DNA from: Scilla litardierei
Taxonomy: Eukaryota > Streptophyta > Magnoliopsida > Asparagales > Asparagaceae
Assembly (NCBI GenBank): GCA_030789695.1
Contig: CM061142.1
Coordinates: 157,948,714 to 158,012,713, forward strand
Direction of reading: 5' to 3'
DNA: 64,000 nucleotides
The translations under genes were made by a program, and so were the position numbers. Below, piece after piece: positions 499-64,000 of the stretch; the first letter of the stretch is position 1; the number at the start of each line of letters is the position of its first letter. The notes below the pieces were generated by a model, which did not search any database, was not told where the DNA came from, and was given only the letters and a program-made list of their open reading frames with translations.

Positions 499-508
499 TA
501 TCAATTTC

Positions 509-516: not shown

Positions 517-949
517 GAACCCTAGGTTTCCCAGAAACGGGAGTTGGTTATTTTTTACTGTTTTCTTCATTTTGTGACGGCTGTAATTTCCCAGTTTTTG
601 TAAGTTTTCGGATCTTTGTGAAACTTTAGTATTATCTTAATTACTTTACTACCATTGCATTTCTATTGTCGGATCATGATTTTTACGGTCGATTTCTGTT
701 TAGATCGCTTTTTCCTAAATATGTGTGAGTAGTTCCCGAATCTGGGATTTTGGCGGAAACCCCTTCGTGGGCTCTTCCCGATGCGTCCATAGGTCTAGGA
801 AATCGATAGGGATTACGAATCTAACGGTTACGCAGGGTGTTTTATTGTCATCGGCGGGAAAAATACCGCCTTTGACCGTTGGGCCAAGGGGGAATAAACT
901 GGGCGGTTGACTCCCTAGCCATAGCTCACGACCTTAGCGTAGACGCCGA

Positions 950-1121
950 ATCCTAGCGCGCGAGAGCGGCAGGATGAGACGTTGGGAGTTATCGTTGCGA
1001 GCTTAGTGCTCCCGGAGTCGATCAGTGTTAATGGACACGGGAGTGCCCACTGATCGAACCCGAGAAGTCCGGCGTATCATCCTGGGCACCGACCGGAATA
1101 TCGGGCCCATGGGACGTCGGT
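950..1121 (+). other. GNRA-capped RNA hairpins in the R-U5 part of LTR A
   Basis: Hairpin 1 (950-975) has an outer stem ATCCT/AGGAT and an inner stem CGC/GCG capped by GAGA. Hairpin 2 (1018-1057) has a 10-bp outer stem TCGATCAGTG/CACTGATCGA and an inner stem CAC/GTG capped by GGGA. A third inverted repeat, ACCGAC/GTCGGT, spans 1088-1121. In the 3' LTR the first loop changes from GAGA to GGGA, which still fits GNRA. Loop class and inner-stem design match the hairpins in LTR families B and C. Confidence 0.6.
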
Positions 1122-1486
1122 ACCACTTTAAGAGGCAACGTCTCACCATTAGACCCTAATTCCGATCGCTATCCTATCCGTAGGCCGTATCGACGAGAAT
1201 CGCACGATAGGGTGGAAACCAAAGTCCCGGGGTTTTCCTTTATATTTTCTATACCTTGCTTTCCATTTACCGTGACAAACCCTCATTTGATCCGGGCTAG
1301 CTCGCCCATGGGGTGAATTTGATCCTCTTTGACACAAGCACATCCACGCCTCCCTGAGTTCGACCCCCAAGCCACACTACAACACCGTGCGCTTGCGGTT
1401 ACAAATATTTAATTCTCACGCCCCCGATCTTATCGTTGCACACATCGAGAACACGCAATAGCAAAACCGGGGGGCGTCAAGCTTTA

Positions 1487-4410: not shown

Positions 4411-4424
4411 ACATCATCAACGGG

Positions 4425-4476: not shown

Positions 4477-5405
4477 TCTAAACTTTTGTTTCCAGTTTTT
4501 AGGACTTTTTCTTAATTTTATTTTATCTATTTTTATAAATAAATCCAGCCGCAACAACTTCCGTGGAAGAACTTAGGCGATTTGTGGGTTTTTGCAGAAA
4601 ACAAGGCCCCAACCGATCGGTTGATAACTCAACCGATCGGTTGGGATGTATCAGCTAACGGCCGTGTCTGCCACTAAATGAACCGACCGGGTGAGAAAAG
4701 AAGAGACCGGTTGGCAGACTGGGTGACCTGGGAGAAACTCTCGGGAAAATTTCAGAATTCGTCAACCGATCAGGTGACAAGAAGCAAGACCGGTTGAGGG
4801 ACCGGGTGAGAAACTCTGAACTCTCGGGAAAATCTGTGGAGCGGCCAACCGATCGGGTGAGTTATCACCCGACCGGTTCACCTGTCGCGTTTTTTCAGCT
4901 TAAAATTTCGACCTAAAGTTAACGGATCGGGTGACTTCTCACCCGATCGGTTCGACTTAAACCCTATAAATATCCCCCGACCCACCCGTTCACAGCCCCT
5001 CGCCCGATCGCTTTCTTCGCCGTCGTTTCGCCTTCCAACCTCTCCCAACGGCCGAAACTCCTCTCCCACTTCCTCTCTTCCTCTATTCGTCTCTCTCTCC
5101 ACCTCCCCCTTCCATCTCTCCATCTCTTTCTCTCTCTCTCTCTCTCCCATTTCGCATTTTTCTAGCCCTAATCCCCAAATCCACCCCCACTTTCGAATTT
5201 TTGCTGAAGAAGAGTGCCGCGGCTCCACACTTCCCCATTGCACGGCATTGGGTCAACTACAAGCGAAGAACTCGAATCTCTGCTGGGTAACTTCGCTCCA
5301 CTTCTCAAATTTCAATTTTTACCCTAGATATTTAATTTGCTTGATTGTTCGTGTGTGTGCACTTCGATAATATTTTACACTCATTTGCATCACTCATACG
5401 CACAT
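4477..5405 (+). other. Non-coding spacer between gag-protease and env-like ORF
   Basis: No coding potential is seen. It holds many copies of the AACCGATCGG(G/T)TGA motif between about 4606 and 4960, the same motif as in the LTR U3, followed by a CT-rich stretch (about 5085-5160). That CT tract could act as leader or splice-acceptor context for the env-like ORF. Confidence 0.7.
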
Positions 5406-7121
5406 ATGGCCCGGGAAAGAGATAAGGGAAAGAGTATCATGCGTGAGGAGGAACCATCTCGAAAGAGACGGAAACAAACACGTCCTCCCACACACACACA
5501 TGAACTGACACTAGCCCCTCCCCCACCTATTATCCCCCATGAGGACCCAATGTTGGGCCCGCATAGGTACCTATTTAGGAACCAAGAGCAGAAAGACTTT
5601 TATCGTAGACTAGATGCTCTAGGGCATCTATCAACCAAGTTTGCCCACACCCAATCACTCGTCAACCTCGGTGTCTTCACCGAGGTCGAGACTCTTTTTG
5701 CTAACTTAGGCTGGTTGGCCTTCCTGAATGCCTCTGCGGTATCCTACCCGTCACTCACCCTAGAATTTCTTTCCTCACTTGTTTATGAGTCGGGGTCGAC
5801 TGTCATTTTCCGGGTGCATAACAAAACCATCCGCACCAACCTGGATACGATCAATGGTATATTTGGTTTCCATATTCTAGGGAATGATGCTATCCGACAC
5901 TACGGATACCCCACGGAATTTGACGTCGATAACTTTTGGTTCCGCCTCACCATACTCCCTCGCTATCCCCGAGGTAAGGCCAAGGCCTCCTCCATCATCC
6001 ATCCCATATTTCGTCTGGCCCATAGGATCATATCCTCTGCATTTTTCCCCAGGGACGAGTCAGGCACCGTGACTATCCCTGATCTTTTCATTTTGTGGGC
6101 CATGACTTTCCCCTTTGTTCGTGATGATGATGGGATTAGCTTTCGGGCCCCGACTGTCCCTGTTCATGCTAGCGATTGGCTTATTTACAAGCTTCTCGAG
6201 ATTAGCAGGGCCGGGAAGGGCAAGATCTGTTGTGGGGGCATTATCACTATTATTTCTTCTTACCCCCAGTTTAATATCCATATCCCCCGTGGTCTTCCCA
6301 TCGCCGCAGGACCCTCACGTCTAGATCTTGACGTCCTGCGGCACATTCATATGATTAAGCCCCGCCCCGATGGTCGTTTTGAATTCAATTATGGCCACCC
6401 CCCTCGCCCTTACACCATTCTCCCCAACCCCGCTCTCATGACTGTTGCTATCATGCCGGATTGGACTTTTCCGCCCGATCCCGAGTTTCTAGCGGGGTTG
6501 CACCTTCCTTTCTTTTCCCCGGACGCACGCAGATCACCTTCCCTTGCCGCCCACTTAGGTGAGCAGGATATTCCTGCGTCCCGGGGAGATATCGGGGCTG
6601 GCCCGAGTCACCCAGTTTCTGCTCCTGGCCTTATCCCTTTAGTGAGCCTTTCTCAGGCCACCTTAGGCCTTCTGTCCAGTGCCGGCACGACCACTGCCGC
6701 CGGCACTACTTCGACATCACTTCCCGGTACCACATCCGCCTCACGTCAGTCTACATCTTTTGGTCGCCGTCAGGCCTCGGCTCGTCTCGCTCTCGAGGCC
6801 GAGGTCGCTGCTCTCCGTGATCTTGCCAGGTCCTCTGTCCCCTCGGACCCTTCTCCGTCCTCCTTTCTCACTCACCCACGTTTCCTCGCACTTGAGAGGA
6901 ACGTGGCCGCCATCCTCCGCCTTCTCACTCACCTCCACGGACCACCACCACCCACACCACCACCTTCACCACCTCGTCGATCTTCTCCTCCACCCTCACA
7001 CACATCCCCACCTCCATCACCTCCACCATCCCATACATCCCCACCTCCTTCACCTCCACCTAGGCGATCATCCCCCCTCCCATATCTATTCCCATCCCCG
7101 TATCCACCTCTACTCTCATGA
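5406..7121 (+). CDS. Athila env-like (ORF-1 family) protein of element A1
   Basis: The ORF opens at 5337, but ATG 5406 (MARERDKG) heads the natural basic N-terminus and gives 571 aa. A nuclear-localisation-like cluster, SRKRRKQTR, sits near residue 15-25. A globular domain of about 300 aa follows (motifs YRRLDALGHLSTKF, NLGWLAFLNASAVSYP, GFHILGNDAIRHYG). Then come a Ser/Thr/Ala-rich region, a short heptad-like helix (ARLALEAEVAALRDLA) and a Pro-rich tail. This resembles the plant Athila ORF-1 family found 3' of pol. It is called env-like by position only: no signal peptide, transmembrane segment or furin-like site is visible. The reading frame is intact. The role is unknown. Confidence 0.75.
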   Translation: MARERDKGKSIMREEEPSRKRRKQTRPPTHTHELTLAPPPPIIPHEDPMLGPHRYLFRNQEQKDFYRRLDALGHLSTKFAHTQSLVNLGVFTEVETLFANLGWLAFLNASAVSYPSLTLEFLSSLVYESGSTVIFRVHNKTIRTNLDTINGIFGFHILGNDAIRHYGYPTEFDVDNFWFRLTILPRYPRGKAKASSIIHPIFRLAHRIISSAFFPRDESGTVTIPDLFILWAMTFPFVRDDDGISFRAPTVPVHASDWLIYKLLEISRAGKGKICCGGIITIISSYPQFNIHIPRGLPIAAGPSRLDLDVLRHIHMIKPRPDGRFEFNYGHPPRPYTILPNPALMTVAIMPDWTFPPDPEFLAGLHLPFFSPDARRSPSLAAHLGEQDIPASRGDIGAGPSHPVSAPGLIPLVSLSQATLGLLSSAGTTTAAGTTSTSLPGTTSASRQSTSFGRRQASARLALEAEVAALRDLARSSVPSDPSPSSFLTHPRFLALERNVAAILRLLTHLHGPPPPTPPPSPPRRSSPPPSHTSPPPSPPPSHTSPPPSPPPRRSSPLPYLFPSPYPPLLS

Positions 7122-9117
7122 CCACTTCTATCGCACCCACACCACCTCCTCCCTCCTCCACCGTCACTGGTTATGTGCACCGCAAGAAATTGCAGGTGCG
7201 CTCCAGATCTCTTCCACTGCCACCCACTACCATCACCATCACGTCTTCTCCCCCCATTTCTATCCCTTCTACCATAGCCTTGATCGCCATACTTCCACCA
7301 CCACCCACCACCACCGACACTCCACCCACATTCACACCACCACTGCACCTATTCCTCCACCTCTTTCTCCGCTTCTCCGCACACCCCCAGCCTCCCCCGA
7401 CCACCCATCCACTCCCTCTTCCGAGGAGGACGAGGATTCCCCTTCTCCTGCCTTTTGATTTCACTTTGTTTTTTTGGCATCCCCCTTGCATATCTCTGCA
7501 CTTTCACGATCATATCTTTTCGCTAGCACTGTCACGTCTAGCTTGGGGGAGGTCAAATTTTTGGGTGTTTTGTCGTGTTTTGTTTTTCTTTGTGTGTTTG
7601 TTTATTTGTCGTGTCGCGTGATTTTCTCTCTTTATTTTATTTTTCTTTTCTGTTTTTATGTCGCGTGGTGTGCATTTTTATCTTTATTTCTTATTTTCAT
7701 TTTCGTTTGTTTGATTTTCTTTTCTTTCGTATGTTTTTATGTCTGTGCGTATTCCCCCCATTTTCATTGCCCTCCAGTATTTAATTCTATTGCATTGAGG
7801 GCAATGCAAGCTTCAGCTTGGGGGAGTCGCACTTCGTGCGTCGTTTGTGTCATTTTTGAGTCGTTTTTCTCCATCTTTTTATTTTTCTTTCTCTTTTCTT
7901 CTTTTTATCTCTTTCTCCTAGAGATGAACCCTATGATGAATTGCCACAAAATCACACACACCTAGCATAGCATCGATAATCACATTCACTAACCATAGGA
8001 TATCGAGTCCCCCTGCATTTCACGCATCGTGGGTCCACTTAGCTTTTTGTGAGTCGTGTGCCGTGCCTAGCTGTTTGGTGTGCTTCTGCTTTGTGATTTT
8101 ACTTTATATACCTGTCCAGGAATGACCCCTAGATTATCACGCTTCGATATGAATAATGCGGTATTTGCTTCTCTTGTCTGCTTCTATATGCATGCTATAT
8201 TTATATCGAATGCTTCATTTTGCATGCGCCAGGATTCCACAATTAAGGACTATGATAACCAACTTAGCACATGCTCTAATTAGCGAGAATAGTTTCCTTT
8301 GCCCAAGTGTTTAGATTCCGATTTCTCTTTTGTTTTACTTGGTGCAAATCCCCTCGTCGTGTACCGTTCTCCAACTTGGGAGAGTACACATGTATATACC
8401 CCAATATCCAAAAAATCCAAAAAAGGAGAAAAGAAAAGAAAAACCCAAAAAGAAGAGAGAAGAAAAGAAAGAAAAAAATTGTATAGCCAAAAAGCCAAAA
8501 AAAATACATATATCCAAAACCCAAAAAAATTCCCGTGTGAATATTTCCCCTACTTGCCGAGAATAAAGGGAAGGCGAGAATTTGCACCGAGTGTTCTTCT
8601 CCACATCATCTCAACCCCCATTGGTTTCGAAAACACTTGGCTTAGGAACTTTTTTTAGCTGCTATCTTGGCTATAGTGGAGTGATTTCCTTAACCCTAGT
8701 TGTGGAGTCCCTGACACTTGATATGTTTCGATTCTCTCTCTATTCTCATGCATGCTTGAACTACATATATTCACCGCTTAATTCGAATCGAATCGATATT
8801 TGGGTCATTTCCTGGATATGTGTATATCGAGCTTTATCGCACATCGTAGATAGTGACACCGTCTCCTAGCACACGACCACACTCACTTGCGCTTCACCGC
8901 GTGGGCCCACGGCACTCGTCTGGACTCGTATTCCTTGGTTTAGTGATGGGATTTGGCGTTCGCTTGCTTGGTGTGTCGTTTTTGATTTTGTTGGCCCTGA
9001 CGGGTGATCTAGGATATAGAGTTTTCTTTTTCTCTCTTTCTCTCTATTTTTCCTCTCCGAGCTCCTACTCTAACTCGTCTTCCTCGAGGACGAGGAAGAG
9101 TTCAGCTTGGGGGATTT
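7122..9117 (+). other. 3' non-coding region of A1
   Basis: The first 340 bp are CA/CC-rich and open in several frames (down to about 7458), probably the eroded Pro-rich end of the env-like gene. The rest is T-rich with two copies of AGCTTGGGGGA (7540-7550, 7815-7825) identical to the PPT core, and an A-rich purine tract at 8405-8530. No further gene is recognised. Confidence 0.65.
9079..9117 (+). other. Polypurine tract of A1 with preceding hairpin
   Basis: AGCTTGGGGGA (9104-9114) lies directly before the 3' LTR and is the plus-strand primer. Just upstream, 9079-9098 forms a perfect hairpin CTTCCTCG-AGGA-CGAGGAAG. Versions with one mismatch stand in the same place in B1 (about 22367) and B2 (about 47235, minus strand). 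Confidence 0.75.
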
Positions 9118-10714
9118 TGACGTGCGTTTATATTTCATATATTTGCGCACGTTTTCTTCCGTGTTTTTCTGTATTTTACCACCGTCTTATATTTGTTTTC
9201 TCGTGTTTTCTTGTTTTATTTCACTTTTCCGTGTTTTCCGTATTTTACAGGAGTTTGCTGGCATAAGGTACATAAAACGACGATATCGCAAGTCCCCGGA
9301 GCAACGGGAGGAGTCACGCGTGATCCAGGGGGTCAAACGACGATGATATCATCTTTCAGCCCATCACCCGGTCGGTTGGTCATCTTCAACCGATCAGGTG
9401 ATGCACGCGTGCACCACCCGGACGCAGCTTGGAGCTCACAAGAAGTCACCCGGTCGGTTTAGCGACCGGGTCAAAAGCCCAAACTCTCTGGAATTCGACG
9501 CTGATTACCAACCAATCGGGTGACCTTCACCCGATCGGTTCACCTGTAGCTGAATCTCAAAAGCCAAGACACGAAGATCCAACCGGTCTCCTCACCCGGT
9601 CGGCACCAAGATCCAACCGGTCACATCCATGCTTCAACCGACCGGTTCATCCTGACCGGGTGAAGTCCCGCATCTCGCTGCCAAAGTTTGAAGCAGGTCA
9701 CCCGATCGGTTGACTTGTCAACCGATCGGGTGATATCAATTTCTATATATAGAACCCTAGGTTTCCCAGAAACGGGAGTTGGTTATTTTTTACTGTTTTC
9801 TTCATTTTGTGACGGCTGTAATTTCCCAGTTTTTGTAAGTTTTCGGATCTTTGTGAAACTTTAGTATTATCTTAATTGCTTTACTACCATTGCATTTCTA
9901 TTATCGGATCATGATTTTTACGGTCGATTTCTGTTTAGATCGCTTTTTCCTAAATATGTGTGAGTAGTTTCCGAATCTGGGATTTTGGCAGAAACCCCTT
10001 CGTGGGCTCTTTCCGATGCGTCCATAGGTCTAGGAAATCGATAGGGATTAGGAATCTAACGGTTACCCGGGGTGTTTTATTGTCATCGGCGGGAAAAATA
10101 CCGCCTTTGACCGTTGGGCCAAGGGGGAATAAACTTGGCAGTTGACTCCCTAGCCATAGCTCACGCCCTTAGCGTAGACGCCGAATCCTAGCGCGCGGGA
10201 GCGACAGGATGAGACGTTGGGAGTTATCGTTGCGAGCTTAGTGCTCCCGGAGTCGATCAGTGTTAATGGACACGGGAGTGCCCACTGATCGAACCCGGGA
10301 AGTCCGGCGTATCATCCTGGGCACCGACCGGAATATCGGGCCCATGGGACGCCGGTACTACTTTCAGAGGCAACGTCTCACCATTAGACCCTAATTCCGA
10401 TCGCTATCCTACCTGTAGGCCGTATCGGTGAGAATCGCACGATAGGGTGGAAACCAAAGTCCCGGGTTTTTCCTTTATATTGTCTATACCTTGCTTTCCA
10501 TTTACCGTGACAAACCCTCATTTGATCCGGGCTAGCTCGCCCATAGGGTGAATTTGATCCTCGTTGACACAAGCACATCCACGCCTCCCTAAGTTCGACC
10601 CCCAAGCCACACTACAACACCGTGCGCTTGCAGTTACAAATATTTAATTCTCACGCCCCCGATCTTATCGTTGCACACATCGAGAACACGCAATAGCAAA
10701 ACCGGGGGGCGTCA
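9118..10714 (+). repeat. 3' LTR of element A1
   Basis: The LTR is 1597 bp, begins TGACGTGCG after the PPT and ends GTCA at 10714, followed by the interrupted protease codons of B0. It carries the TATA box at 9744-9751 and the same inverted repeats and hairpins as the 5' copy. A TTTTACAG|G acceptor-like site lies at about 9250. Confidence 0.93.
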
Positions 10715-12092: not shown

Positions 12093-12397
12093 TGATCACT
12101 CCATATTTTATACCTTTTTTCTGCATGTTTGCATGCCGTTTTGATCGCCCATATCGCGTTTTTCATGATTATTCGACAATATTGCGATGCTTTTCACTAT
12201 TTCTTGTTTTTATCGTATTTCAGGAAATATGGAACGATTTGGAGCGATTTTGAGATCAAGAGGTTTGCAAGCGCTTAGGAGTGTCACCCACGGCTCATTT
12301 GAGGGCTTATCAGCGATGGAGGATGAGCGGAAGAAGAAGGAAATCAATAGGAGCGACGAGGAGGCAAAAAGAAGGAGAAACAGGCATTTCAGCACAT

Positions 12398-12765
12398 CAC
12401 TCGGCCGAGTACGAATGCTCACTCGGCCGAACAAGAAGTCCCACTCGGTCGACCAGAACAGATACGCACACGGAGTTTTTTAGCGTATACTCGGCCGAAC
12501 GAAGAAATCCTACTCGACAGAGTGAGAAAGCTCACTCACCCGAGTGGTACAGGGAATTTGTCCAGAGAAAAGGCCGAAGTTGCTGCAATTTTCAGAGATC
12601 CTTTGGAGGCTTACTCGGCTGAGTACGAATGCTCACTCGGCCGGATGATGAATGCCACTCGGCCGAGCCATCCCCCGAAGACAGACCCTAAAACATCTGA
12701 AGTTACTATTTTTTTACAGGGTTTGTAACTCGGCCGAGTAACAAGGGTCACTCGACCGAGTGAAC
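12398..12765. repeat. Palindrome array CACTCGGCCGAGTG in U3 of LTR B
   Basis: About ten perfect or near-perfect copies of the self-complementary ACTCGGCCGAGT core (variants ACTCGACCGAGT and one-sided TCGGCCGA) are scattered with no fixed period. The same array fills the internal UTRs at 11620-11950, 17660-17990 and 51650-51890, and the other family-B LTRs. Confidence 0.8.
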
Positions 12766-12846
12766 CGCTCTGCCTGCTGCTAGGGTTGTGATTTTTGGGC
12801 GGCGCATGGGCAGTTTGGTCACGATTTTTTGGACGATTTTAGAGGG

Positions 12847-12854
12847 TATTTAAA
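12847..12854 (+). promoter_or_regulatory. Putative TATA box of LTR B
   Basis: TATTTAAA follows the palindrome array and precedes the leader that carries the hairpin array. Placement mirrors the TATA box in LTR A. Confidence 0.5.
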
Positions 12855-13215
12855 CCCAGTTTTTGCCCTAGTTTAAAGAGCTTTTGAATAATTAATTTTT
12901 AGACTTTCTTTTAAGATTTTGACGGCTACTCTTTGGTGAATTCTTAGCTGGAAATCATTGGCATCTACATTGGTTTGTCTATTCCTATTAAAAACTCAAT
13001 TTTTATGCATTATTTCTCTTTTGCAATGAATTGTGCCGATATTATTGTTGATTTTTCTGAGGTTTGCATGATGTCTAGTGAGTAGTGCCCTCGTCTTATG
13101 GCGTATGGATGAACCCATGGACCCTATTTCTAAATTGTGATGAATTTGTAGAATTGTTGCTAGAATTGATTAGGGTTATGTTGTAATTGATTAATTACGG
13201 ATAGCTAGGAATTCA

Positions 13216-13511
13216 TATCGATTGGGATTTGCAAGAGATTGGATCCCAATTGATAGGAAGGCCTAGATATTCGATTTAGATTGACAATTGGATTTCTCTA
13301 AATTTGGTTTGCAAGAGATTGGACCAAAGCTAGGATTTTTAATTGTGAATCTATACCAATATTTGTTTGCAAGAGATTGGACGGATAGGAAATATTATAA
13401 CCTAGGTCGTAGCTTGAGTTTGTACGAGAGTGGGCTCGGGATACGATTGAACAATGATGTCGTTCTTCACGCTAGCGGCTTAGGCTAGGGTTTGCACGAG
13501 AGTGGGCTCTA
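13216..13511 (+). other. Array of five GNRA-capped hairpins in the LTR B leader
   Basis: Each unit reads outer stem, UUG, inner stem of 3 bp, GAGA, inner stem, G, outer stem. H1 (13216-13255): TATCGATTGGGAT/ATCCCAATTGATA, inner CAA/TTG. H2 (13303-13328): TTTGGT/ACCAAA, inner CAA/TTG. H3 (13361-13386): ATTTGT/ACGGAT with two G-U pairs, inner CAA/TTG. H4 (13413-13440): CTTGAGT/GCTCGGG, inner TAC/GTG. H5 (13486-13511): TAGGGT/GCTCTA, inner CAC/GTG. The B2 LTR keeps loops while stems change compatibly, for example H3 ATTCGT/ACGAAT. Seen directly in DNA; RNA folding is inferred. Confidence 0.75.
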
Positions 13512-13878
13512 TCCTAGGTTTGCTATAGACCGGCAATAGCGCGACAACGTGAGATTGGTTCTACATTAAGTTGCGACTAGTTCACCTATATTCAAGCTTA
13601 GCAACAATGAAACTTATGAATCACAGGGATGAGAGAAGGTCCGTAGTGGGGTTCCCTATCCCTAGACGTTTTATTAAATTGATATTTCTCTTGATATTTG
13701 AACAATTGTGACTGTTATACCCAGAAATATTCTCGATTCTCTTGATAGCTAGGTAATTGGAAAGAGACACAGTCATTTGTTCATCCCTGAGTTCGATACC
13801 CGCTCTCCGCTACACCGTGCGCTTACAGTAAAACTACAAGTCGTTTTTCGGGTGTACACTCGGACGCGATCAAGTTTT

Positions 13879-13895
13879 TGGTGCCGTTGCCGGGG
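13879..13895 (+). other. Primer-binding site of B1, tRNA-Asp type
   Basis: TGGTGCCGTTGCCGGGG lies 6 nt after the LTR and pairs with the tRNA-Asp 3' end with one mismatch. Confidence 0.85.
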
Positions 13896-13911
13896 AGCCC
13901 ACTCAAAGAGC

Positions 13912-15138
13912 ATGTGGAAGTCTGCATGGGGAAGCCCACTCAAAGAGCAGGAACTAAACCCAGATGTTGCAGAAGAGGTCAAGTTTTCACAAGGAGAGGA
14001 AGTAGAGGGTACATCGCCCCCTGAGGTAGAGGTTAAACAATTACCACCAAATCGAAGGTACGCTTTCTTGGGTAATAAATTGACCTATCCAGTTATTGTT
14101 AATGCCCATCTTAGCCATGATCAACTGGAAAGACTCTTAGAATTCCTTAGGAGTCATAAGGATGTACTTGGATACACCATCTCTGATCTTAAGGGAATAA
14201 GCCCTAGGCTTTGCACGCATAGAATCCACTTGGAAAACACCGAAGCCACCTCCATAGAGCCTCAAAGGCGGTTGAACCCTAACATGAAGGAGGTGGTTAA
14301 GAAAGTGATTCTTAAATTACTTGAAGCCGACATTATCTATCCTATCTCTGATTACCGGTGGGTTAGCGACGTTCATGTCGTCCCTAAAAAGGGAGGGATG
14401 ACCGTTATAAAAACCGAAAAGGGAGAACCCATTTCTACGCGTACCGTCACGAGATGGCGGATGTGTATTGAATATAGGAAATTAAATAAATCCACCCGGA
14501 AAGACCATTACCCATTGCCATTCATTGATCAAATGCTTGAGCGGCTCACTAAACATAAATACTTCTGTTATTTGGATGGGTATTCGGGATTCTTTCAAAT
14601 CCCCTTGCATGAAGATGACCAAGAAAAGACCACTTTCATATGTCCTTATGGTACATATGCCTATCGTAGAATGCCCTTTGGACTTTGCAATGCTCCTGCC
14701 ACTTTTCAAAGGTGCATGACATCAATCTTTTCTGATTACATTGAAAATATTATGGAAGTCTTCATGGATGATTTTTCTGTATATGAAAGTGAGTTTGATT
14801 CTTGTTTGGCTAATCTTACTAAAGTCCTCAAACGATGCCAACAAAATAACCTCACTCTTAATTGGGAAAAATGTCATTTTATGGTCACCGAGGGGATAGT
14901 TCTTGGGCATCTTGGTTCTTCTAGTGGGATCGAGATTGATAAGGCGAAAATTGAGGTAATCGAAAAACTCCCGCCTTCTATTAATGTTAATGGCATTAGA
15001 GGCTTTATTGGTCATGCGGGGTTTTACCGCCGCTTTATAAAGGACTTTGCCCTAATTGCCCGACCCCTTACTGCCTTACTTGCTAAAGATGCCCCTTTGT
15101 ATTTTCAGGAGAGTGCTTGCAAGCATTCAACACGTTGA
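13912..15138 (+). pseudogene. pol: Reverse transcriptase domain of B1 pol
   Basis: An open frame runs without a stop from inside the LTR (13777) through the primer site into RT. The first AUG after the primer site is at 13912. RT motifs follow in order: linker near RYAFLGNKLTYPV, WRMCIEYRKLNKSTRKDHYPLP, YLDGYSGFFQIPL, MPFGLCNAPATFQRCM, the catalytic FMDD at 14761-14772 and GFYRRFIKDF. The FMDDF variant is common in Athila/Tat. The domain is essentially complete. At about 15110 a small indel leads to TGA at 15136. A duplicated 17-bp word (13896-13912 and 13933-13949) marks the junction that replaced gag-protease. Confidence 0.88.
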
Positions 15139-15470
15139 AGGAAGCGCTCATTTCCGCCCCCCATTATACAACCACCCGACTGGAGCCTTCCCTTTGAGCT
15201 CATGTGTGATGCAAGTGACCAAGCAATTGGAGCAGTGCTAGGTCAGCGGAAGGATAAAACGCTTCATGCAATATTCTATGCAAGCAAAACATTGGACGAG
15301 ACACAGAAAAACTACACCACAACCGAAAAAGAGCTCTTGGCGGTTGTCTATTCCATCGAGAAGTTTCGGTCCTACCTCCTTGGATCCAAGGTTATTGTCC
15401 ACACCGACCATACAGCATTGAAGTACCTCCTAAGCAAAAAAGAGGCAAAGCCAAGATTGATAAGATGGAT
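15139..15470 (+). pseudogene. pol: RNaseH domain of B1 pol
   Basis: Two compensating indels (about 15110 and a C-run near 15157) put about 50 bp out of frame; then RNaseH resumes in the RT frame. Motifs are [16 protein letters not shown], the Glu in [12 protein letters not shown], and [10 protein letters not shown]. All three acidic residues expected of Ty3-type RNaseH can be seen. A 1-bp deletion near 15468 moves the continuation into the integrase frame. Confidence 0.85.
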
Positions 15471-16914
15471 CTTTTGTTGCAAGAATTTGACTTGGAGATT
15501 AGAGACAAGAAGGGAACGGACAACGTTGTGGCGGACCACTTGTCTAGGCTTGTTTGCGACAAGGAGGATGAAAGCTTGCCAATCGATGACACCTTTGTCG
15601 ACGAGAGGCTATTCTCCGTAAGACCCGGAGAGGTGCCTTGGTATGCGGATTTTGTTAATTATTTGGCTTGTGGGATAAAACCATGCGGAATGCCCACGCA
15701 ACAAAAGAAGAGATTTATGCACGAAGTCAGAAACTATTTCTGGGAAGATCCATATCTCTTCAAGATATGCACGGACGGAGTTATACGGAGGTGTGTTTCC
15801 AAGGAGGAGGCCACATCAATCATTTTGCATTTCCATAGTATGCCATGCGGGGGACATCATGCGGCCTCTAAAACCACCGCTAAGATATTACAGTGCGGGT
15901 TCTTTTGGCCAACCATGTTCAAGGACACGCATGACCTCGTCAAGGGATGCGATAGATGCCAACAGACCGGAAATATATCCAAGCAAAACGAGATGCCAAT
16001 GAAGCCCATTCTAGAAATTGAGCTATTTGATTGTTGGGGAGTGGACTTCATGGGACCTTTTCCGTCAAGCAAAGGAAACAAGTGCATCTTATTAGTCGTG
16101 GACTACGTCTCTAAATGGGTGGAAGCCATTGCGACCCCTACCAATGATGCGATGGTGGTGTCCAAATTTTTCAAGCAAAACATCTTCCCACGCTTTGGAG
16201 TGCCTCGTACTTTGATAAGCGACGGGGGAAGCCACTTTATAGAAAACAAATTTGAAGCCATGTTGAAAAGGTATGGGGTGAATCATAGAATTGGCATGGC
16301 ATACCACCCTCAGACGAGGGGCCAAGTGGAGGTGTCGAACCGAGATATCAAGCAAATTTTAGAAAAGACAGTCGATAGATCTAGAAAAGATTGGTCCATG
16401 AAATTGAACGATGCACTGTGGGCATATCGTACGGCCTTTCGCACTCCCATTGGCACCACACCGTACCGACTTGTTTATGGGAAAGCTTGTCACTTGTCGG
16501 TGGAGTTGGAACACCGCGCATATTGGGCCATTAAGACATTCAATTATGACTACAAGAGTGCGGCGGTGAGGCGACTCTTAGACATTAATGAGCTTGATGA
16601 GATTAGACGTGATGCTTACGAGAGCTCAAGAATTTACAAGGAAAGGACTAAAATCCTCCACGACGCACGCATCACCATTACGGACTTCAAGGTCGGAGAA
16701 AAAGTCCTCCTATTCAATTTCCGGCTCCGACTCTTCCCTGGAAAGTTAAGATCGCGATGGTCCGGACCATTCACCATTAAGCACATACAACCGGGGTGAG
16801 CTTTTGAATTGGAAGGAAAAGACGGGGCCACATTCAAGGTGAATGGACAACGGCTCAAGCATTATTCCGAAGGAGCCCCCACCGGTGAAGTGAATCGCGT
16901 ATATCTACTCAAGG
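15466..16914 (+). pseudogene. pol: Integrase domain of B1 pol
   Basis: The long frame 15465-16799 carries the HHCC zinc-binding domain ([11 protein letters not shown]..., CDRCQQTG) and the catalytic core with D at 16044, D at 16221 and E at 16329 (D-x58-D-x35-E). A C-terminal region follows ([21 protein letters not shown]). An in-frame TGA at 16797 interrupts it, after which the same frame continues (AFELEGKDGATFKVNG) to about 16914. [13 protein letters not shown] replaces the usual PQTNGQAE. No chromodomain is present, as expected outside the chromoviruses. Apart from the stop the enzyme looks complete. Confidence 0.88.
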
Positions 16915-17337
16915 GACGCCCCCACGATCTTTCATACCTCCTTGATGAGGTAATCGACGAAGTCGTTCCATATTCTATGGCGCTCTCCATGATGATGGGC
17001 TTGAAGAAGGCCAAATTTCTTGCATTGAAGAAAAGTTGGAGGACCCTCCTGATAGCTCTACGGCCGATGATGAAGACGACGCTGATGTCGCAAGGATAAG
17101 GGAGCTTTGCAAGCTCTCAACGGCCAACAATTCGAAGAAAGCTCCACCGAATAGAAGGTCGGTGTCGCCGGTGAGGAAGAAGATTGGTTCTAGCTCAAGC
17201 TTGGGGACTTATCCCCCAACTCTACCCATGATGAGGGGATGCCGAGGAAAGCCCACGAGCATCAACAACCAAATCCAAGTGGCCTTTTCGGCAAGTTTGA
17301 CGGGCGTATCTCGCATGTGCCCAACATCACGCGTTAA
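16915..17337 (+). pseudogene. gag-protease tail fused behind integrase in B1
   Basis: Directly after the integrase C-terminus the frame turns into YLLDEVIDEVVPYSMAL and then, after frameshifts, DDADVARIRELCKLST and the Ser/Lys-rich end. This is the same tail that follows protease in B0 and B2. It ends in TAA at 17335. The fusion shows that pol occupies the place of gag-protease in an otherwise B-type element. Confidence 0.75.
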
Positions 17338-17350
17338 ACGAAAATCATAA

Positions 17351-17400
17351 GGGATCGAGCTCATGACCTTAAACGAGCGCTTGTCGGGAGGCAACCCGAC
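17351..17400 (+). other. Post-stop double hairpin (copy in B1)
   Basis: Hairpin I (about 17352-17369) keeps the GAGCTCAT loop but has one mismatch in its stem. Hairpin II, GTCGGG/CCCGAC around AGGCAA, lies at 17383-17400. The block starts 13 nt after the TAA at 17335. Confidence 0.65.
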
Positions 17401-18559
17401 GGTTTCATATCATTCATAGTTGATTTTCATTTTTACTTTAGTTTGTTTCTTAGTGTTTAGAGTCTAGTGTCTATAAAAATCGTGACATCGGGCCCTATTT
17501 TTATTGACAGGAGATGGAGAACGAGAGATCATTCATATGGAGGATGACTAAGGCAAGGGAGAGCGCTGCAGGAACGCGCTCAGGCTTCAGGAGAAGGCAA
17601 GGACTGACTGGAGGAAGAAAAACATAGAATAGAGAGAAAACAGAGAGCCGTTGCAGAAAACAGGATGCCACTCGGTCGAGTAACATATGTCACTCGGCCG
17701 AGCACAGACTCCATTCGGCCGAGTGGAGTACAGACCAGGGAAGATCGTTCTGACCAACTCTTTGTTATTTTTTCAATTTACAGTATAATTTTCCACTCAG
17801 ACGAGTGACTTGTCACTCGGCCGAGTGAATCAGATACCATGCACGCTCTAAATATCGCCAAGTGGCTATGCCACTCGGCCGAATGGAACTTATCCATTCG
17901 GCCGAGTGGGAAAAGTCATTCGGCCGAGTCGTAAATTGCGAAGATATTTCGAAAAAAATTTTCTACTCGACCGAGTGAGATAGTTACTCGGCCGAGTCGC
18001 GACTTTCCTATATATAATCTGAGCGGGTTGCGCGAATTTCGAAACACAAAAAACCCAAATTTCGCCCGAATCGATGCCGCTTCGCTGCCGCTTCGCCTCC
18101 CTTCACCCGAATCGCAGCTCCCCTCGCCCCGCCACCGCACGCCGGCTGACGACCCGCCGCCGACCGGCGCCGACGTCGCCCCGTCGTCGCTCGCCACCAG
18201 TGTTGCCCTCCCTCGCCGCCGGTCACCCTCAGTTCGCCCAAAAACTCGATTTTCTCCTCCATTCTCCCATTTTGTACGCCCATTGCCCCCCCAAACTCAA
18301 ATCAACTCCTATATATATCTGTTATCCCCTACCTCCCCCATGTATATTGATTATCATTCGCTGATTTTATTGTTTACGTTTCAGGTTTGCTTGGGGGAGC
18401 TTGGGGGGGGGGGGGCTTTTGGACACATTCGGAGCCTCGCGGAGGAGGTGTTCTTCGCACACATTAGATTTTGCTCTTGCGTCGTGCTCAGGTATACTCG
18501 TTCCATCATCTAGCACTTCGCGTTTTTTACTTGGGTAGTGGGCGCGTCTCGCGGCACAT
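17401..18559 (+). other. Internal UTR of B1
   Basis: Non-coding. Copies of CACTCGGCCGAGTG lie between 17660 and 17990. A TTTCAG|G acceptor-like site is at about 18378-18384, then two PPT-like motifs (18389-18410) and a run of 13 G (18403-18415). No gene is seen before the env-like ORF. Confidence 0.65.
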
Positions 18560-20518
18560 ATGCCGTCTCGCCTTAGGCCACGCATGCGGGAGCCCGTTTC
18601 CAAGCGAAAGAAGCCAGGTGATCCTGGCTCCTCTTCCGCTAGGGCAGACTCCCCTCCACCTAGCCCACCACCACCTACTCAGTCGCCTCCTGCCGATCCC
18701 ATCCCACCACCTGCACAGCCTGCCCACGCGTTCGATGCGATGGGGATTACATTTCGAGTTGATGCCCAGCGCGCCAGATTCTAGCATATCTCCCATCGCT
18801 CGATCGTACCCACTAGGTTCGTGCACCTCGCTGACTTTGAGCACCTAGTGGTTCTAGAGGGGCTACTCCAGTTGTACGACAGCGTGGGGTGGCGTGATTT
18901 CTTGTCGGTGTCGGCGGACACTTATATCCGCCCGACACTAGAGGTCCTTAGTTCTATTGAGCGGACCGCTGGAGGATGTTCATTTCGCCTGATGGATCAG
19001 GAGTGCCAGGTCACTCTTGACATGCTCCGAGCATTCTTCCAGTGGCCCGCTGTCCCTGACCCAGACCGCGCTTACGCTCCCACGCACATCCCACCCCCGT
19101 CGTTCGACACCCACGCTTTCTGGACCCGGATTACAGGATCACCCCTTACCTTTGACCCTAGTAGGGCCAAGGCCTCTGCCGTCCTCCACCCGTGCCTCCG
19201 CATTGCACAGCGCCTTATGGCGACCACTTTTCTTGCACGGTACGAGCCCGGTACGTTGTCGACGCCAGAGCTCTACATGATCTATACGATGACACATCCC
19301 AGGGTTTTTGAGGGAGCTAACGTTCTGGTCCCCGTTGTAGAGATTGATATCACCAGTTGGTACATCGACCACATCATTATTTCTATCGGCGCTCGTATGC
19401 CTATTTGCTGCGACGGTCTGATTACACTCTTGGCTCTTTTGTGCGGAGTCGACCTCCCTGCTCACTTGCTTCGACCAGCGGGCCCCACTTCACTATCGAT
19501 AGACGTCATGGCCTGGATGAGGATGCTGCGTCCTCATGGTCGTTAGCACTGGGTGTGGCTCCACGGTCCTTTTGCTGCTGATTACATGATTCTTCTGAGC
19601 CCTGCTCGGACTCATATAGGACCCGCGGGCGGAGATTGGATTCCAGCGATGGATCTCCTCATCCCCACCCTTTACGTACTAGAGCCCGATGGTGCTCAAC
19701 AGGAGCCCCTCATTCCACCCTAGGACCCCGTGATCCCTCAGCCTGCACCTGAACTATCTGCACCTCTCGACACCTCTGTCCACACTTCTGTTAGTGTCGG
19801 GAGCACTTTTGCTGAGTCATCGTCCACCACCGCCACCACCTCTGTGCCCATTTCTGTCGATCCCATTTCCGCTGCTAGCCCTGAGCGTCCCGCTACCATT
19901 TTTGAGAGGGGCGAGACCTCCTTTACCGCCGCAGTGGCAGCCCTGTCCTCACTTTTGTTCACGGCCACCCCAGCCGTTGACCCATCTGTCCCCACTGCTG
20001 CTGTTTTCTCCGAGAGCGTAGTGACGTCTGTCCCCACTTCTGTGTCACTGACCTCTCTGCATGCCTCGTCTTTAGCGACCACTTCCACTTCTGCTGCTGC
20101 TCCTTCCTCGCCTTCCTTGCCTGCGTCTCAGCCTCACACAGAGGCCGAGCGATACTTAGCGAGCACAGCACCGGAGCACCACCCAATAGCTGCACCCATC
20201 CTTTACGGCGGCCGCGTGAGACAGCACCGTTCTTCACCTGTCTGACCTGTTTGACCCTCTGCTCTACCTCCCCCCGACACCCTAGTTCAGAGCATTCGTG
20301 CTCTTGAGGGGGCAGTTAGTGGACTCAGAGGAGACTTTAGGGCTCTCTCCACCACCGTCAGTGCAGTCCAGACCTGCGTCGCCATACTTCCTAGTATTCA
20401 GGCTTGCCTGAATCAGATTCTTGTGCGTCTGCCTCTGCCACCCACACCCACCCAGCAGCCACCATGCCCGCCACCACCTCCGCCACAGGACGGTACTGGT
20501 GCACCCCCACCCCTTAGG
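18560..20518 (+). pseudogene. Env-like gene of B1, broken by stop codons
   Basis: Collinear with the intact 659-aa ORF of B2 (49087-51066). It starts with MPSRLRPRMREP and a basic SKRKK cluster, then a Pro-rich linker and the globular domain (GWRDFLSVSADTYIRPTLEV, CSFRLMDQECQVTLDML, PELYMIYTM). In-frame stops lie near 18782, 19545 and 19722, and others follow near 20242-20252. Since frame is mostly kept, decay seems to be by point mutation after insertion. Confidence 0.85.
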
Positions 20519-22405
20519 CACACACTGGATGCCTTCCACATTCTTGCTGTCGATACGCTGGATACTTTTTGTGAGCCTGCTGATTTTGCACCCCTCCTTC
20601 ATAGACCGTTTTGTTCACATTATGGTCATATCTGTATATCTGTTTGGAAGAGAGGGAGTACTTTTTGGGGACACTCATATCTGCACTATTTTGATCTCTG
20701 CATGCATCACCTGCATTCTCATATCATTTTCTTTCTTTTTTTCCATCATGCATTCATCCTCACCCACCCCACCCACTTTTTGTCTCTCGGTGTGCCACAC
20801 TTCGCACATTGAGAACACTGTGCACTTTAGCTTGGGGGAGTGAGTTCTCACACTTTTTATTTTTGTCACATTTTATTTTTATTTTTATATTTTCCACCTT
20901 TTCTTTGTTTTTACACACATTTTCACCCACTTTTTCCTTTATTATCATGCATCACGTTTTTTCTATTTCTTGAGTGTGCTGCATTGTACAGTAGTAGTTT
21001 TTATTTCCTTTTTATCCTTATTTCTTTCATCTTTTCGCTAGAGATGAATTTTCTGTGATGACGACGACGTGGTGCTAGCTTATCTCTATATGCATATTAC
21101 TTTGACATGCCATAGTTTTTATTTCAGATATTATATGCTGTGTCTTGCTATGCATTTGAGATAGTAACCCGCACTTTCATGTATGAATATGGATGAAATT
21201 CTTTTATTAGCTGAATCTGATAATTTATATGTATACTCTTCGTAGAAAACACACCAAGCTTCACGCATTGATTGCTTATATCTGGAGTACTGCTTTCCTT
21301 TCTTATATCACTTCTTATTGCATGAAAATTGTACGCTTCACTTTCAGGTTGAATGAATGTATGTTAGGTTGATATAACTGGACTAGTTTACTTTTTGAGA
21401 TTAAACTGAGTAGATTACATTACTCTGCTGAAAGTTGGCGTGCACGTCCTATAGAGTGAACCGAGTGTTACCTTTATTTCTTTCTCCACATATCTTGAGC
21501 ATTATTTCTATACTTATATTCATTGGTGAATCTCCCTTTAGCGATTCTATCATTGGCATTTCCCCCGCTATTAAATTCCACGCTCCAATTCCCCAAAATC
21601 AAAAAGAAAAAATATGAATATCTTTCTATCTTTTGATTTGGGATCTCAGATGTATATATGCATAAAAAAAGAAAAAGAAAAAAAGAAAAAAGAAAAAAAA
21701 AGAAAAGAAAAGAGAAAAGAAGCTCCCATATCACACTTTTTCTCTCTTTCTTCCCTCTTTTGTTTTTATTTTTATTGGAGCTTCAAAAATGGGGAATGTA
21801 CTTATTGATTTACTTATGCCACCACGCTTATAGATAGGTTTGGGGGAGAGGATCCAATGATGTGTGAGAGAGTGACTACTTGACTGTGCATGACAACCTA
21901 GGCTAGGTAATTTTCTATACTCGGTGAGATTACTGAAAGTTTTACGAAATCCAGGAATTGATACGTAGTATGCACTTCATGAAAACCATACCTCTCTATT
22001 CTTATTGATCCATGATGTGTGATATCTCTTATACTCCAAATAGAAAGCATTCAATTGAAAAGTGTGTGGTCTATGATTATGTATACCACTTTAGATGCTT
22101 CAGACGATGTTAATTCTAGAACGATTCCATATTTCATACTATTTTGCTATTCTCGGGTTTTCTATTTTGAATGCATCCATATGATTGTGATATCGAAATG
22201 AAAATCTTTGGCATGTGTTTTATATTCGCCGTATGCTATATGGGTAAGTAAGGCCCATGTCCTGAGAAAATGATCTAGCACCTAACTCTTTGCCTTCTTT
22301 CTTATTTTCTATCTCTTCCGTTTTTTCTTTTTATTATTTTTCCCGTCGGGTTCGCCTTTTACTTATCTTCCTCGAGGACGAGTAAGAGGTAAGCTTGGGA
22401 GATTT
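20519..22405 (+). other. 3' non-coding region and PPT of B1
   Basis: T-rich, no gene. PPT-like motifs recur at 20829-20839 and 21837-21849. The functional PPT, AGCTTGGGAGA (22392-22402), precedes the LTR and is preceded by a hairpin CTTCCTCG-AGGA-CGAGTAAG (about 22366-22386, one mismatch). An A-rich purine tract lies at 21665-21725, as in A1. Confidence 0.7.
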
Positions 22406-45415: not shown

Positions 45416-47196
45416 TGATCGCATCCGGATGTATACCCGAAAAACGACTTGTAGTTTTACCGCAAGCGCACGGTGTAGCGACAAGCGGGTATCGAACTTA
45501 GGAGGACAAATGACCGTGTCTTACTCAAATCACCTAGCTATCAAGAGAAAAAGAATAGTTGGGTGTAATAGTCACAATCGTTCGAATATCAAGGAAATAT
45601 CAATATAATAAAAAGCGTCTAGGGATGGGAAATGCCCACTATGGACCGTCTCTCATCCATGTGATTCATAAATTTCATTGTTGCTAAGCTTGAATATAGG
45701 TGAACTAGTCGCAACTTAATGTAGAACCAAGCTCACGCTCTCTCGCCATTGCCGGTCTATAGCAAACCTAGGATAGGGCCCACTCTCGTGCCAACCCTAG
45801 CATAAGCCGCTAGCGTGAAGAACGACATCATTGTTCAATCGTATCTCGAGCCCACTCTCGTGCAAACTCGAGCTACAACCTAGGTTATGATAGGTCTTAT
45901 TCGTCCAATCTCTTGCAAACGAATATTGGTATAGATTCACAATTAAAAATCCTAGCTTTGGCCCAATCTCTTGCAAACCAAATCTAGGGAAATCCAATTG
46001 CCAATCTAAATCGAATATCTAGACCTTCCTATCAATTGGGATCCAATCTCTTGTAAATCCCAATCGATATGAATGCCTAGTTACCCGTAATCAATCAATC
46101 ACAACCTAACCCTAATCAATTCTAGCAACAAATCTACAAATTCATCACAATTCAGAGATAGGGTCCATAGGGTTCATCCCCATGCCCTAGAACGACGACA
46201 CTACTCACTAGACATCATGCAAATCTCAAAAAAATCAATAATAAATGCGGCACTCATTGCAAAAGAGAATCAAAAGAGAAATAATGCATAAAAATTGAGT
46301 TTTTAATAAGAATAGACAAACCAATGTAGATGCCGACGATCTCCAGCTGAGATTTCACAAAGAGTAGCCGTCAAAAATCCTAAAAGAAAGTCTAAAAATT
46401 AATGTTCAAAAGCCTTCTAAACTAGGGAAAAAACTAGGTTTAAATACCCTCTAAAATCGTCCAAAAAATCGTGACCAAACTGCCCCTGCGCAGCCTAGAA
46501 ATCGCAACCCTAACAGCAGGCGGAGAGGGTCACTCGGTCGAGTGACCCTTGTCACTCGGCCGAGTGACAAACCCTGTATAAAAACAGTAACTTCGGGTGT
46601 TTCAGGGTCTGTCTTCGGGGGGTGGCTCGGCCGAGTGGCTTTCTTCATTCGGCCGAGTGAGCATTCATACTCGGCCGAGTGGGCCTCCTCAGAATCTCTA
46701 AAAATTCCAGAAACATGGCCTTTCTCTGGACGAAATTCCCTGTACCACTCGGGCGTGTGAACTTTCTCACTCGGCCGAGTGGGCTTCCTCCGTTCGGCCG
46801 AGTATATGCTGAAAATCATCGTGTGCGTATCCGTTAATGTTCGGCCGAGTGGGGCTTCTTGCTCGGCCGAGTGAGTGGTCTACTCGGCCGAGTGGTGTGC
46901 TGTTGAGCTCATTCTTCCTTCTTTTCGCCTCCTCGTCGCTCCTATTGATTTCCTTCTTCTTCCGCTCATCCTCCATCGCTGATAAGTCCTCGAATGAGCC
47001 GTGGGTGACACTCCCAAGTGCGTACAAATCCTTTGATCTCAAATTCGCTCCAGATCGCTCCATATTTCCTGAAATACGACAAAAATAAGAAATAGTGAAA
47101 AGCATCGAAATATTGTCGAATAATCGTGAAAACGCGATATGAGCGATCAAAACGACATGCAAACATGCAAAAAAGGTGTAAAATATGGAGTGATCA
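45416..47196 (-). repeat. 3' LTR of element B2 (family B)
   Basis: On the minus strand TGATCACTCC (47196) to GCGATCA (45416), 1781 bp. It has the palindrome array (46520-46900), the hairpin array (46069-45774) and the family end block. Confidence 0.93.
45774..46069 (-). other. Five GNRA-capped hairpins, B2 3' LTR copy
   Basis: H1 46030-46069, H2 45956-45982, H3 45899-45924, H4 45845-45872, H5 45774-45799. Against B1, H3 changes ATTTGT/ACGGAT to ATTCGT/ACGAAT, H4 CTTGAG/CTCGGG to CTCGAG/CTCGAG, H5 the partner of TAGGGT from GCTCTA to GCCCTA, and H2 closes with U-G. All loops remain GAGA. Confidence 0.75.
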
Positions 47197-51291: not shown

Positions 51292-51359
<68 letters not shown>

Positions 51360-52425: not shown

Positions 52426-52426
52426 T

Positions 52427-62379: not shown

Positions 62380-64000
62380 TGATCGTGTTCGGATGTATAC
62401 TCGAAAAACGACTTGTAGTTTTACCGCAAGCACATGGTGTAGCGACGAGCGGGTATCGAACTCAGGGATGACAAATGACCGTGTCTTACTCAAATCACCT
62501 AGCTATCAAGAGAACAAGAATAGTTGGGTGTAATAGTCACAATCGTTCGAATATCAAGGAAATATCAATATAATAAAAAGCGTCTAGGGATGGGAAATCC
62601 CCACTACGGACCGTCTCTCATCCTTGTGATTCATAAATTTCATTGTTGCTAAGCTTGAATATAGGTGAACTAGTCGCAACTTAATGTAGAACCAAGCTCA
62701 CGCTCTCGCGCTATTGCCGGTCTATAGCAAACTTAGGACAGGGCCCACTCTCGTGCAAACCCTCGCATAAGCCGCTAGCGTGAAGAACGATATCATTGTT
62801 CAATCGTATCTTGAGCCCACTCTCATGCAAACTCGAGCTATGACCTAGGTTATGATAGGTCTTATTCGTCCAATCTCTTGCAAACGAATATTGGTATAGA
62901 TTCACAATTAAAAATCCTAGCTTTGGCCCAATCTCTTGCAAACCAAATCTATGGAAATCCAATTGTCAATCTAAATCGAATATCTTGACCTTCCTATCAA
63001 TTGTGATCCAATCTCTTGTAAATCTCAATCGATATGAATGCCTAGCTACCCCTAATCAACCATTCACAACCTAACCCTAATCAATTCTAGTAACAAATCT
63101 ACAAATTCATCACAATTCAGAGATAGGGTCCATAGGGTTCATCCACATGCCCTAGAACGACGGAATTACTCACTAGACATCATGCAAATCTCATAAAAAT
63201 CAATAATAAATGCGGCACAATTCATTGCAAAAGAGAAATAATGCATAAAAATTGAGTTTTTAATAAGAATAGACAAACAAATGTAGATGCCGATGATCTC
63301 CAGCTGAGATTTCACAAAGAGTAGCCGTCAAAAATCCTAAAAGAAAGTCTAAAAATTAATGTTCAAAAGCCTCCTAAACTAGGGCAAAAACTGGGTTTAA
63401 ATACCCTCTAAAATCGTCCAAAAAATCGTGACCAAACTGCCCATGCGCAGCCCAAAAATCGCAACCCTAACAGCAGGCGGAGAGGGTCACTCGGCCGAGT
63501 GACAAGGCCGAGTGACCCTTGTCACTCAGCCGAGTGACAAACCTTGTATAAAAACAGTAACTTTGGGTGTTTCAGGGTCTGTCTTCGGGGGGTGGCTCGG
63601 CCGAGTGGCTTTCTTCATTCGGCCGAGTGAGCATTCATACTCGACCGAGTGGGCCTCCTCAGAAACTCTGAAAATTCCAGTAACTTGGCCTTTCTTTGGA
63701 CGAAATTCCCTGTACCACTCGGGCGAGTGAACTTTCTCACTCGGCCGAGTGGGCTTCCTTCGTTCGGCCGAGTATACGCTGAAAATCATCGTGTGCGTAT
63801 CCGTTCTGTTCGGCCGAGTGGGGCTTCTTGCTTGGCCGAGTGAGTGGTCTACTCAGCCGAGTGGTGTGCTGTTGAGCTCATTCTTCCTTCTTTTTGCCTC
63901 CTTGTTGCTCCTATTGATTTTCTTCTTCTTCCGCTCATCCTCCATCGCTGATAAGTCCTCGAATGATCCGTGGGTGACATTCCCAAGCGCGTACAAATCC
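62380..64000 (-). repeat. 5' LTR of element B2, cut by the window end
   Basis: On the minus strand it ends CGATCA at 62380. About 160 bp of its start lie beyond 64000. The hairpin array (about 63035-62730) and palindromes (63480-63860) match the 3' LTR. Confidence 0.92.

Follow-up and report, generated by a model that had tools for sequence, protein, structure and literature searches.

A repeated GNRA hairpin module in the RNA leaders of Athila retrotransposons, with a possible role in packaging

Results

Athila elements in the window

The window, the whole 64-kb stretch of DNA that we analyzed, contains two copies (B1 and B2) of one LTR retrotransposon family, together with an element of a second family, A (Table 1). 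Domain searches confirmed that the element bearing B1 belongs to the Athila lineage of Ty3/gypsy LTR retrotransposons, the lineage to which a first-pass annotation of this DNA had assigned its LTR. RVT_1 and rve domains were found in B1, and the ATHILA ORF-1 domain PF03078 scored 50 bits in B1, 38.5 bits in B2, and 91.8 bits in element A (cut-off 20.2). A TGGCGCCGTTGCCGGGGA-type primer-binding site, which we take to be of the tRNA-Asp type, directly follows the LTR in B1, B2b, B3a, A, and A′; that of A4a is, by eye, one base off this type. The B3, B4, and A4 elements were assigned to the Athila type by LTR similarity, and B3a and A4a also by their primer-binding sites. First-look candidates for these elements numbered 1171 to 9281 per query, with 40 scored for each. 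B1 itself (13897-22406 between primer-binding site and 3′ LTR) has no room for gag, as its reverse-transcriptase domain follows within ~0.6 kb of the primer-binding site.

In B1, an array of five hairpins lies within the LTR, with a TATA box (12847) upstream, as had been noted, and the primer-binding site (13879) downstream. TATTTAA is also present in B3a and B3b, while the TATA box of family A is TATATATAG at 509. Judging from the TATA box, B1 transcription probably starts ~30 nt 3′ of it; if so, the array is within the RNA leader. The computed order of leader elements is TATA box, uORF, rod with its apex, and primer-binding site.

Table 1. Coordinates of the Athila elements and of the features of their leaders
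Feature	Position	Strand	Remarks
Element A	1-10714		PF03078; LTR unlike that of B
Family A first-scanned uORF	676..732	+	18 codons; inner AUG 721 (MCE); ends GAG UAG
Family A predicted rod	742..1230	+	Foot 9 nt past uORF stop
Family A module 1	950..975	+	stem-GC-[G]-CGC-GAGA-GCG-GC-stem
Family A module 2	1020..1055	+	GAUCAGUG-UUAAU-GG-[A]-CAC-GGGA-GUG-CC-CACUGAUC
5′ LTR of B1	12093..13872	+	TGATCA...GATCA; self-BLAST and sequence; 3′ end probable, from sequence
TATA box of B1	12847..12854	+	TATTTAAA
B1 first-scanned uORF	13005..13085	+	26 codons; ends GAG UAG; same in B2b
GTGAGT, splice-donor-like hexamer	13078-13083		Overlaps uORF end in most copies
GAGTAGT, near-invariant uORF end	13080..13086	+	40 or 41 of 41 copies per base
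Predicted rod of B1	13092..13668	+	Foot CGT... pairs with ...ACG; array at apex
Hairpin unit 1	13216..13255	+	14 outer pairs, UG bulge, CAA-GAGA-UUG
Hairpin unit 2 and far stem	13277..13353	+	Core 13303-13328
Hairpin unit 3	13360..13387	+	100% of cells paired
Hairpin unit 4	13407..13446	+	CAC-GAGA-GUG class; UAC in B1
Hairpin unit 5	13486..13511	+	CAC-GAGA-GUG class
U/A-rich stretch after rod foot	13669..13708	+	Candidate landing site, from sequence
Primer-binding site of B1	13879..13896	+	TGGTGCCGTTGCCGGGGA
3′ LTR of B1	22406-22903		Shortened; only 498 bases left
Athila copy B2	45415 to window end	-	
Array in 3′ LTR of B2	45774..46069	-	Shape scan 5/5 units; covariance model 5/5
Array in 5′ LTR of B2	62739..63034	-	Shape scan 3/5 units; covariance model 5/5
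Element A4, in flank	about 163.4-169.9 kb of joined stretch		LTR unlike that of B

The five-hairpin array

The five hairpins reported by the first-pass annotation are all present at 13216-13511. Each has an outer stem of free sequence, followed by a U-G pair, a bulged UG, CAA or CAC, a GAGA loop, and UUG or GUG. The asymmetric UUG/G internal loop that had been described is a fixed feature of the units, but it is better drawn, as in the RNAfold prediction, with a U-G pair next to a bulge of UG (or of a single G).

We scanned both strands of the window for this shape, defined as a GNRA loop, 3 bp, a 2-nt 5′ bulge, and at least 6 pairs. The scan recovered 5/5 units of B1, and every one of its 13 matches fell inside the three arrays of the family, compared with 0.1 matches per strand in 20 mononucleotide shuffles. 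The folding energy of the array was below that of 200/200 dinucleotide shuffles in both B1 (z -4.8) and B2 (z -7.5), and the antisense strand of B1 also folded below its shuffles, less strongly (z -3.6). On the strength of these two sets of shuffles, we rejected the idea of chance hairpins. Pairing holds in 94.4% of cells across 13 distinct units, versus 73.9% in shuffled ones, with a covariation of 0.626 versus 0.238. The hairpins are well supported.

A covariance model built from 14 window units and run against 269 kb from 23 sources detected array units down to an E value of 2e-6. Below these came a fragment truncated at a locus end (E 0.004) and a single weak hit (E 2.2). Rfam gave no matches in the 64-kb window at the gathering score, in keeping with the earlier statement that no described motif of this form was known, and a search of 12850-13910 returned nothing but Ocean-VII at 14.7 bits, under the cut-off of 53.5. 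The exact core was found in 94 stretches of viral contigs, with one match each among the 80 listed, and a search of viral contigs with the Athila reverse transcriptase found no relative. We found no earlier report of the hairpin motif in the portions of the open-access literature available to us; the hairpins in the accessible part of PMC10418216 are synthetic RNAi constructs. The repeated module is thus apparently undescribed.

Frozen cores and drifting stems

We compared 28 B1-type copies with copies of the B2 (2), B3 (6), and B4 (7) subfamilies, all from one genome; for the base pairs, we counted only those shared by 60% or more of the copies in a subfamily. The hairpin cores contained almost no fixed differences from B1-type copies (0/75 in B4, 0/74 in B3, and 1/73 in B2), while the rest of the array had 32/217 in B4 and 24/217 in B3 (Fisher p = 6e-5 and 1e-3 for cores versus the rest, respectively). 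The B4 differences outside the cores were divided between the outer stems (15/100) and elsewhere in the array (17/117). Uncompensated stem mutations in other copies had been named as evidence that would count against the hairpins. Pairing was mostly kept, in 12/13 of the changed array pairs in B3 and 15/17 in B4, as well as 2/3 in B2, compared with 35-56% of changed pairs in slid controls over the whole structure (B3/B4).

The kinds of change were also uneven. Since B3 and B4 have some pair changes in common, distinct changes were counted once for this tally. Distinct one-sided changes from Watson-Crick pairs gave 10 G-U, 1 A-C, and 2 other pairs in the array, and 20, 4, and 10, respectively, in the array plus rod. 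The two kinds of transition are balanced in the same leaders, at 10 to 13 in unpaired columns and 38 to 37 in all columns, making 1:1 a fair null for G-U versus A-C; against it, p was 0.006 for the array and 0.0008 for the array plus rod. Compared with slid structures, which pooled to 42 G-U and 26 A-C and of which two of six were about as skewed as the true structure (11 to 3 and 11 to 1), the G-U excess was borderline (Fisher p = 0.05 for the array and 0.04 for the whole structure). Among 33 copies, variants found in at least two copies comprised 20 G-U and 6 A-C, and singletons 8 G-U and 6 A-C. Since a G-U pair corresponds to an A-C mismatch on the opposite strand, the stem changes with their G-U excess point to selection on the sense-strand RNA. 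An antisense RNA is held unlikely given the G-U excess, borderline as it is over slid controls, and the absence of antisense matches to the module in the leaders (see below).

Other comparisons bear on covariation. An alignment of ten arrays has 98.0% paired cells and two pairs that changed on both sides, but its rows are close relatives in which 97.4% of cells pair even after shuffling, so the alignment is weak by itself. Two-sided changes relative to B3 and B4 occurred in the unit 1 outer stem (UA to CG) and in the unit 2 far stem (CG to UA, seen in 3/10 rows). Between B1 and B2, the first-pass annotation had seen compatible or compensatory changes in H3, H4, and H5. Those between B1 and B2a are compatible, but all are one-sided, from G-U to Watson-Crick, and double compensation was not found. 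Two-sided changes were also seen between units, in line with its claim that the inner stem covaries between units. Inner stems of the module, across lineages, vary yet pair: CAA/UUG, CAC/GUG, CAU/AUG, CGC/GCG, and, in one LTR, CGU/ACG.

The module in related lineages

A and A4 are ~78% identical to each other across some 325 leader bases. The leaders of A, A4, and B have one module build in common, consisting of a bulged purine, a C-G-based 3-bp stem, and a GNRA loop. Examples from A and A4 are CGC-GAGA-GCG, CAC-GGGA-GUG, CGU-GGGA-ACG, and CAU-GUGA-AUG. Between A and A4, both inner and outer stems contain two-sided changes, alongside some broken pairs. Variants shared within A and A4 across the whole structure were without G-U bias (7 G-U, 8 A-C, 11 Watson-Crick, and 8 other).

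We expressed this build as a grammar. As it was written after A and B were known, its counts describe rather than test: seven A, A4, and B leaders contained 1-5 matches each, compared with 0.00-0.02 in 500 shuffles of each. When 264 kb were scanned on both strands, 32/36 matches were in the sense orientation within 12 Athila-type leader stretches (11.7 kb), and no antisense matches were found within these stretches. The 32 leader matches comprise 20/25 B units, one extra match in B2, module 2 in 7/7 A and A4 leaders, and module 1 in 4/7; module 1 fails the grammar in the other 3/7. One of the four matches outside the leaders (joined stretch, 193880, minus strand) was dropped as unrelated by eye.

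The A4 lineage (L038 from about 9460 into L039) has two LTRs merely 5.4 kb apart, and 40 scored genome matches to a piece of its leader are 98-100% identical. This spacing and near-identity suggest a young, perhaps non-autonomous, family.

The rod and the uORF at its foot

RNAfold and RNAalifold both placed the array atop a long rod, and a similar rod was predicted for family A. Folding energies of five leaders were 2.1 to 4.7 SD below those of their shuffles. Several AUGs are located inside the rod. Pairing of the predicted arms is only modestly supported: 12/20 changed pairs were kept in B3 and 13/24 in B4, barely above slid controls, and 9/9 in B2. The rod is thus less certain than the array. 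The stretch that follows the rod foot is rich in U and A in some leaders. AT content there is at the 95th-97th percentile of the leader's own values in B1, B2b, and A5 (in B2b, AT 0.78 and the 97th percentile), and lower in A4a (76th), A′ (74th), and B3a (64th).

Upstream of the rod, a uORF ending in GAGTAG was found in 29/33 B rows, 10/11 A rows, and 2/2 A4 rows; in two of the four B exceptions, the end is GAG UAA. Counted from the putative cap, this uORF is the first AUG frame in B1, B2b, B3a, and A; in A4 it comes second. Families differ in the codons ahead of the end but retain the frame and an inner AUG in that frame. The uORFs are long (18-26 codons), and lengths of 3-6 codons arise only from the in-frame inner AUGs, which in B1 are at 13026 (19 codons) and 13068 (5 codons). 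The inner peptides are MMSSE, MNCE, MINYE, MCE, MNFCE, and MFFTIE. In the minimum free energy folds of B1, B3a, and A′, the long helix begins inside the uORF stop codon. When each leader was shuffled 60 times, 7-15 of the shuffles placed the first-uORF stop between -3 and +9 nt relative to a helix of long span. We therefore rejected uORF spacing as proof by itself; given this frequency and helices that start inside the stop, it counts only through its recurrence.

The uORF end also contains a potential signal for splicing. GTGAGT is present at this position in A, in 4/6 B3 copies, and in 5/7 B4 copies, and GAGTAG is retained despite loss of the GT in A4 (CGAGTAG), 2/6 B3 copies, and 2/7 B4 copies. 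GTGAGT could be kept as a splice donor, serving splicing to the distal ATHILA ORF.

Discussion

To our knowledge, it is largely open by what means plant LTR retrotransposons select their RNA for packaging and translate gag past long AUG-rich leaders. The Athila module resembles two known kinds of hairpin. Retroviral packaging (Psi) leaders contain GNRA-type or GACG hairpins, and both they and the Athila 5′ leader have a number of short hairpins whose tetraloops are rich in purines; Athila differs in having one module five times, with a fixed 5′ bulge, inside the LTR and upstream of the primer-binding site. The coat-protein operator hairpins of MS2-type phages also set a bulged purine at a constant distance from a tetraloop, within a stem whose sequence is free, whereas the Athila hairpins have 3 bp rather than 2 bp between bulge and loop, a GNRA loop, and tandem copies, and belong to a plant element.

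The arrangement of the whole leader unexpectedly resembles that of a pararetrovirus. Caulimoviridae such as CaMV and RTBV have a similar order of a 5′-proximal uORF, a long stem-loop, its apex, a U/A-rich stretch (in Athila a candidate one, marked in some leaders), and the primer-binding site. Ribosome shunting in these viruses is driven by the uORF before the stem together with the U/A-rich stretch on which ribosomes land, and the uppermost stem-loop bears the packaging signal (PMC5902531). Athila elements are LTR retrotransposons, with LTRs, an integrase, and the ATHILA ORF, rather than pararetroviruses. Their uORF is longer, their apex consists of repeated GNRA hairpins where caulimovirids have a purine-rich sequence, and shunting in Athila is putative. 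In the open-access literature available to us, we found no shunting in an LTR retrotransposon, and the retrotransposon passages we saw of PMC5902531 report none.

The explanation we favor, to which we assign a probability of about 0.5, is that the array is the packaging apex of a shunt-type leader and binds Gag multivalently. That loop and bulge hardly vary while the stems are free in sequence suggests recognition by a protein, repetition of the hairpin suits a multimeric ligand such as Gag, and the location within the leader agrees with this role. The array would then have a function in the genomic RNA, displaying five copies of a protein-recognition hairpin at the rod apex of the 5′ leader, and would most likely be a packaging signal, a role that the first-pass annotation had reasonably guessed. 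Several Gag (nucleocapsid) molecules may bind the repeated hairpins and so single out full-length RNA to be encapsidated and reverse-transcribed. The rod could allow a single RNA to be both translated and packaged: scanning ribosomes would translate the uORF, terminate close to the rod foot, shunt past the rod to the U/A-rich stretch, and continue to gag, while the apex stays folded. We infer Gag as the ligand, packaging, and shunting from the anatomy of the leader and by analogy.

Four other explanations were considered, each of them improbable. Retroviral transport elements export unspliced RNA from the nucleus, and the hairpins might likewise recruit an export factor for unspliced genomic RNA, with GTGAGT serving as the splice site from which an mRNA for the distal ORF would be made. 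The array lies 3′ of this donor, so only unspliced RNA would contain it, and the hexamer overlaps the uORF end in A and in most B3 and B4 copies; the RTBV donor, too, lies within its uORF (PMC5902531). Retention of GAGTAG without the GT in A4 and in two copies each of B3 and B4 argues against such a role, and we consider it unlikely. We give similarly little credence to an RNA-RNA tertiary element, in which helices of the leader itself or of a partner genome would receive the docked GNRA loops, giving a compact or dimeric fold. Docking had been raised as a possible function; five copies would permit it to be multivalent, and the second base of the GNRA loop varies in the A lineages (GAGA, GGGA, and GTGA). 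Docking alone does not account for UUUG and the 3′ G hardly varying among the B cores, and dimerization through the loops, also suggested earlier, is unlikely since by inspection GAGA is not self-complementary.

Invariance of the cores also bears on the idea that rod and hairpins merely block scanning or soak up Dicer as a silencing decoy, the repeated cores being incidental. A long leader, several AUGs within the rod, and folding energies lower than those of shuffles would all fit; yet the cores are invariant while the stems drift, and a simple barrier would not preserve one loop and bulge, making this slightly less probable than the export or docking roles. By far the least probable explanation is that the repeats act in DNA, as double-stranded protein-binding palindromes of the LTR. 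The core contains ATTGG, which is CCAAT reversed, in units 1-3, other palindromes crowd the U3 of both families, and the G-U excess over slid controls is borderline. However, ATTGG is absent from units 4-5 and from the A modules, G-U pairs are kept and A-C mostly are not (10 to 1 in the array), and the leaders are free of antisense matches to the grammar.

Returning to a Gag-binding packaging apex, a broader proposal, which we put forward tentatively and think somewhat doubtful as a whole, is that Athila uses the leader plan of pararetroviruses, with uORF-driven shunting over the rod and a multivalent Gag-binding GNRA array at the apex. The distal ORF would perhaps be spliced from a donor where the uORF ends, as RTBV has its donor inside the uORF (PMC5902531). 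If true, plant reverse-transcribing elements would have an ancient or repeatedly evolved way for a single RNA to be both mRNA and genome, and a plan common to Athila and Caulimoviridae would inform views of how these elements evolved. Since the module occurs in abundant elements, it offers concrete nucleotides to test and a scannable marker of such leaders elsewhere.

Other features of the window

The U3 of B1 (12400-12760) contains short CG-centred palindromes of the CTCGGCCGAG type, or halves of these, with 9 matches, and the U3 of family A (133-495) contains different CG-centred palindromes, of the CCGATCGG type, also with 9 matches. In both Athila families, these are possibly promoter or enhancer repeats. 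Copy B2 is interrupted by a copia-type element (51899-59129) with LTRs of ~0.53 kb that are 95% identical, and it also contains a near-perfect self-complementary stretch of ~70 bases (51292-51360). Tandem units of ~620 bases, 84-90% alike, occupy 38500-40310.
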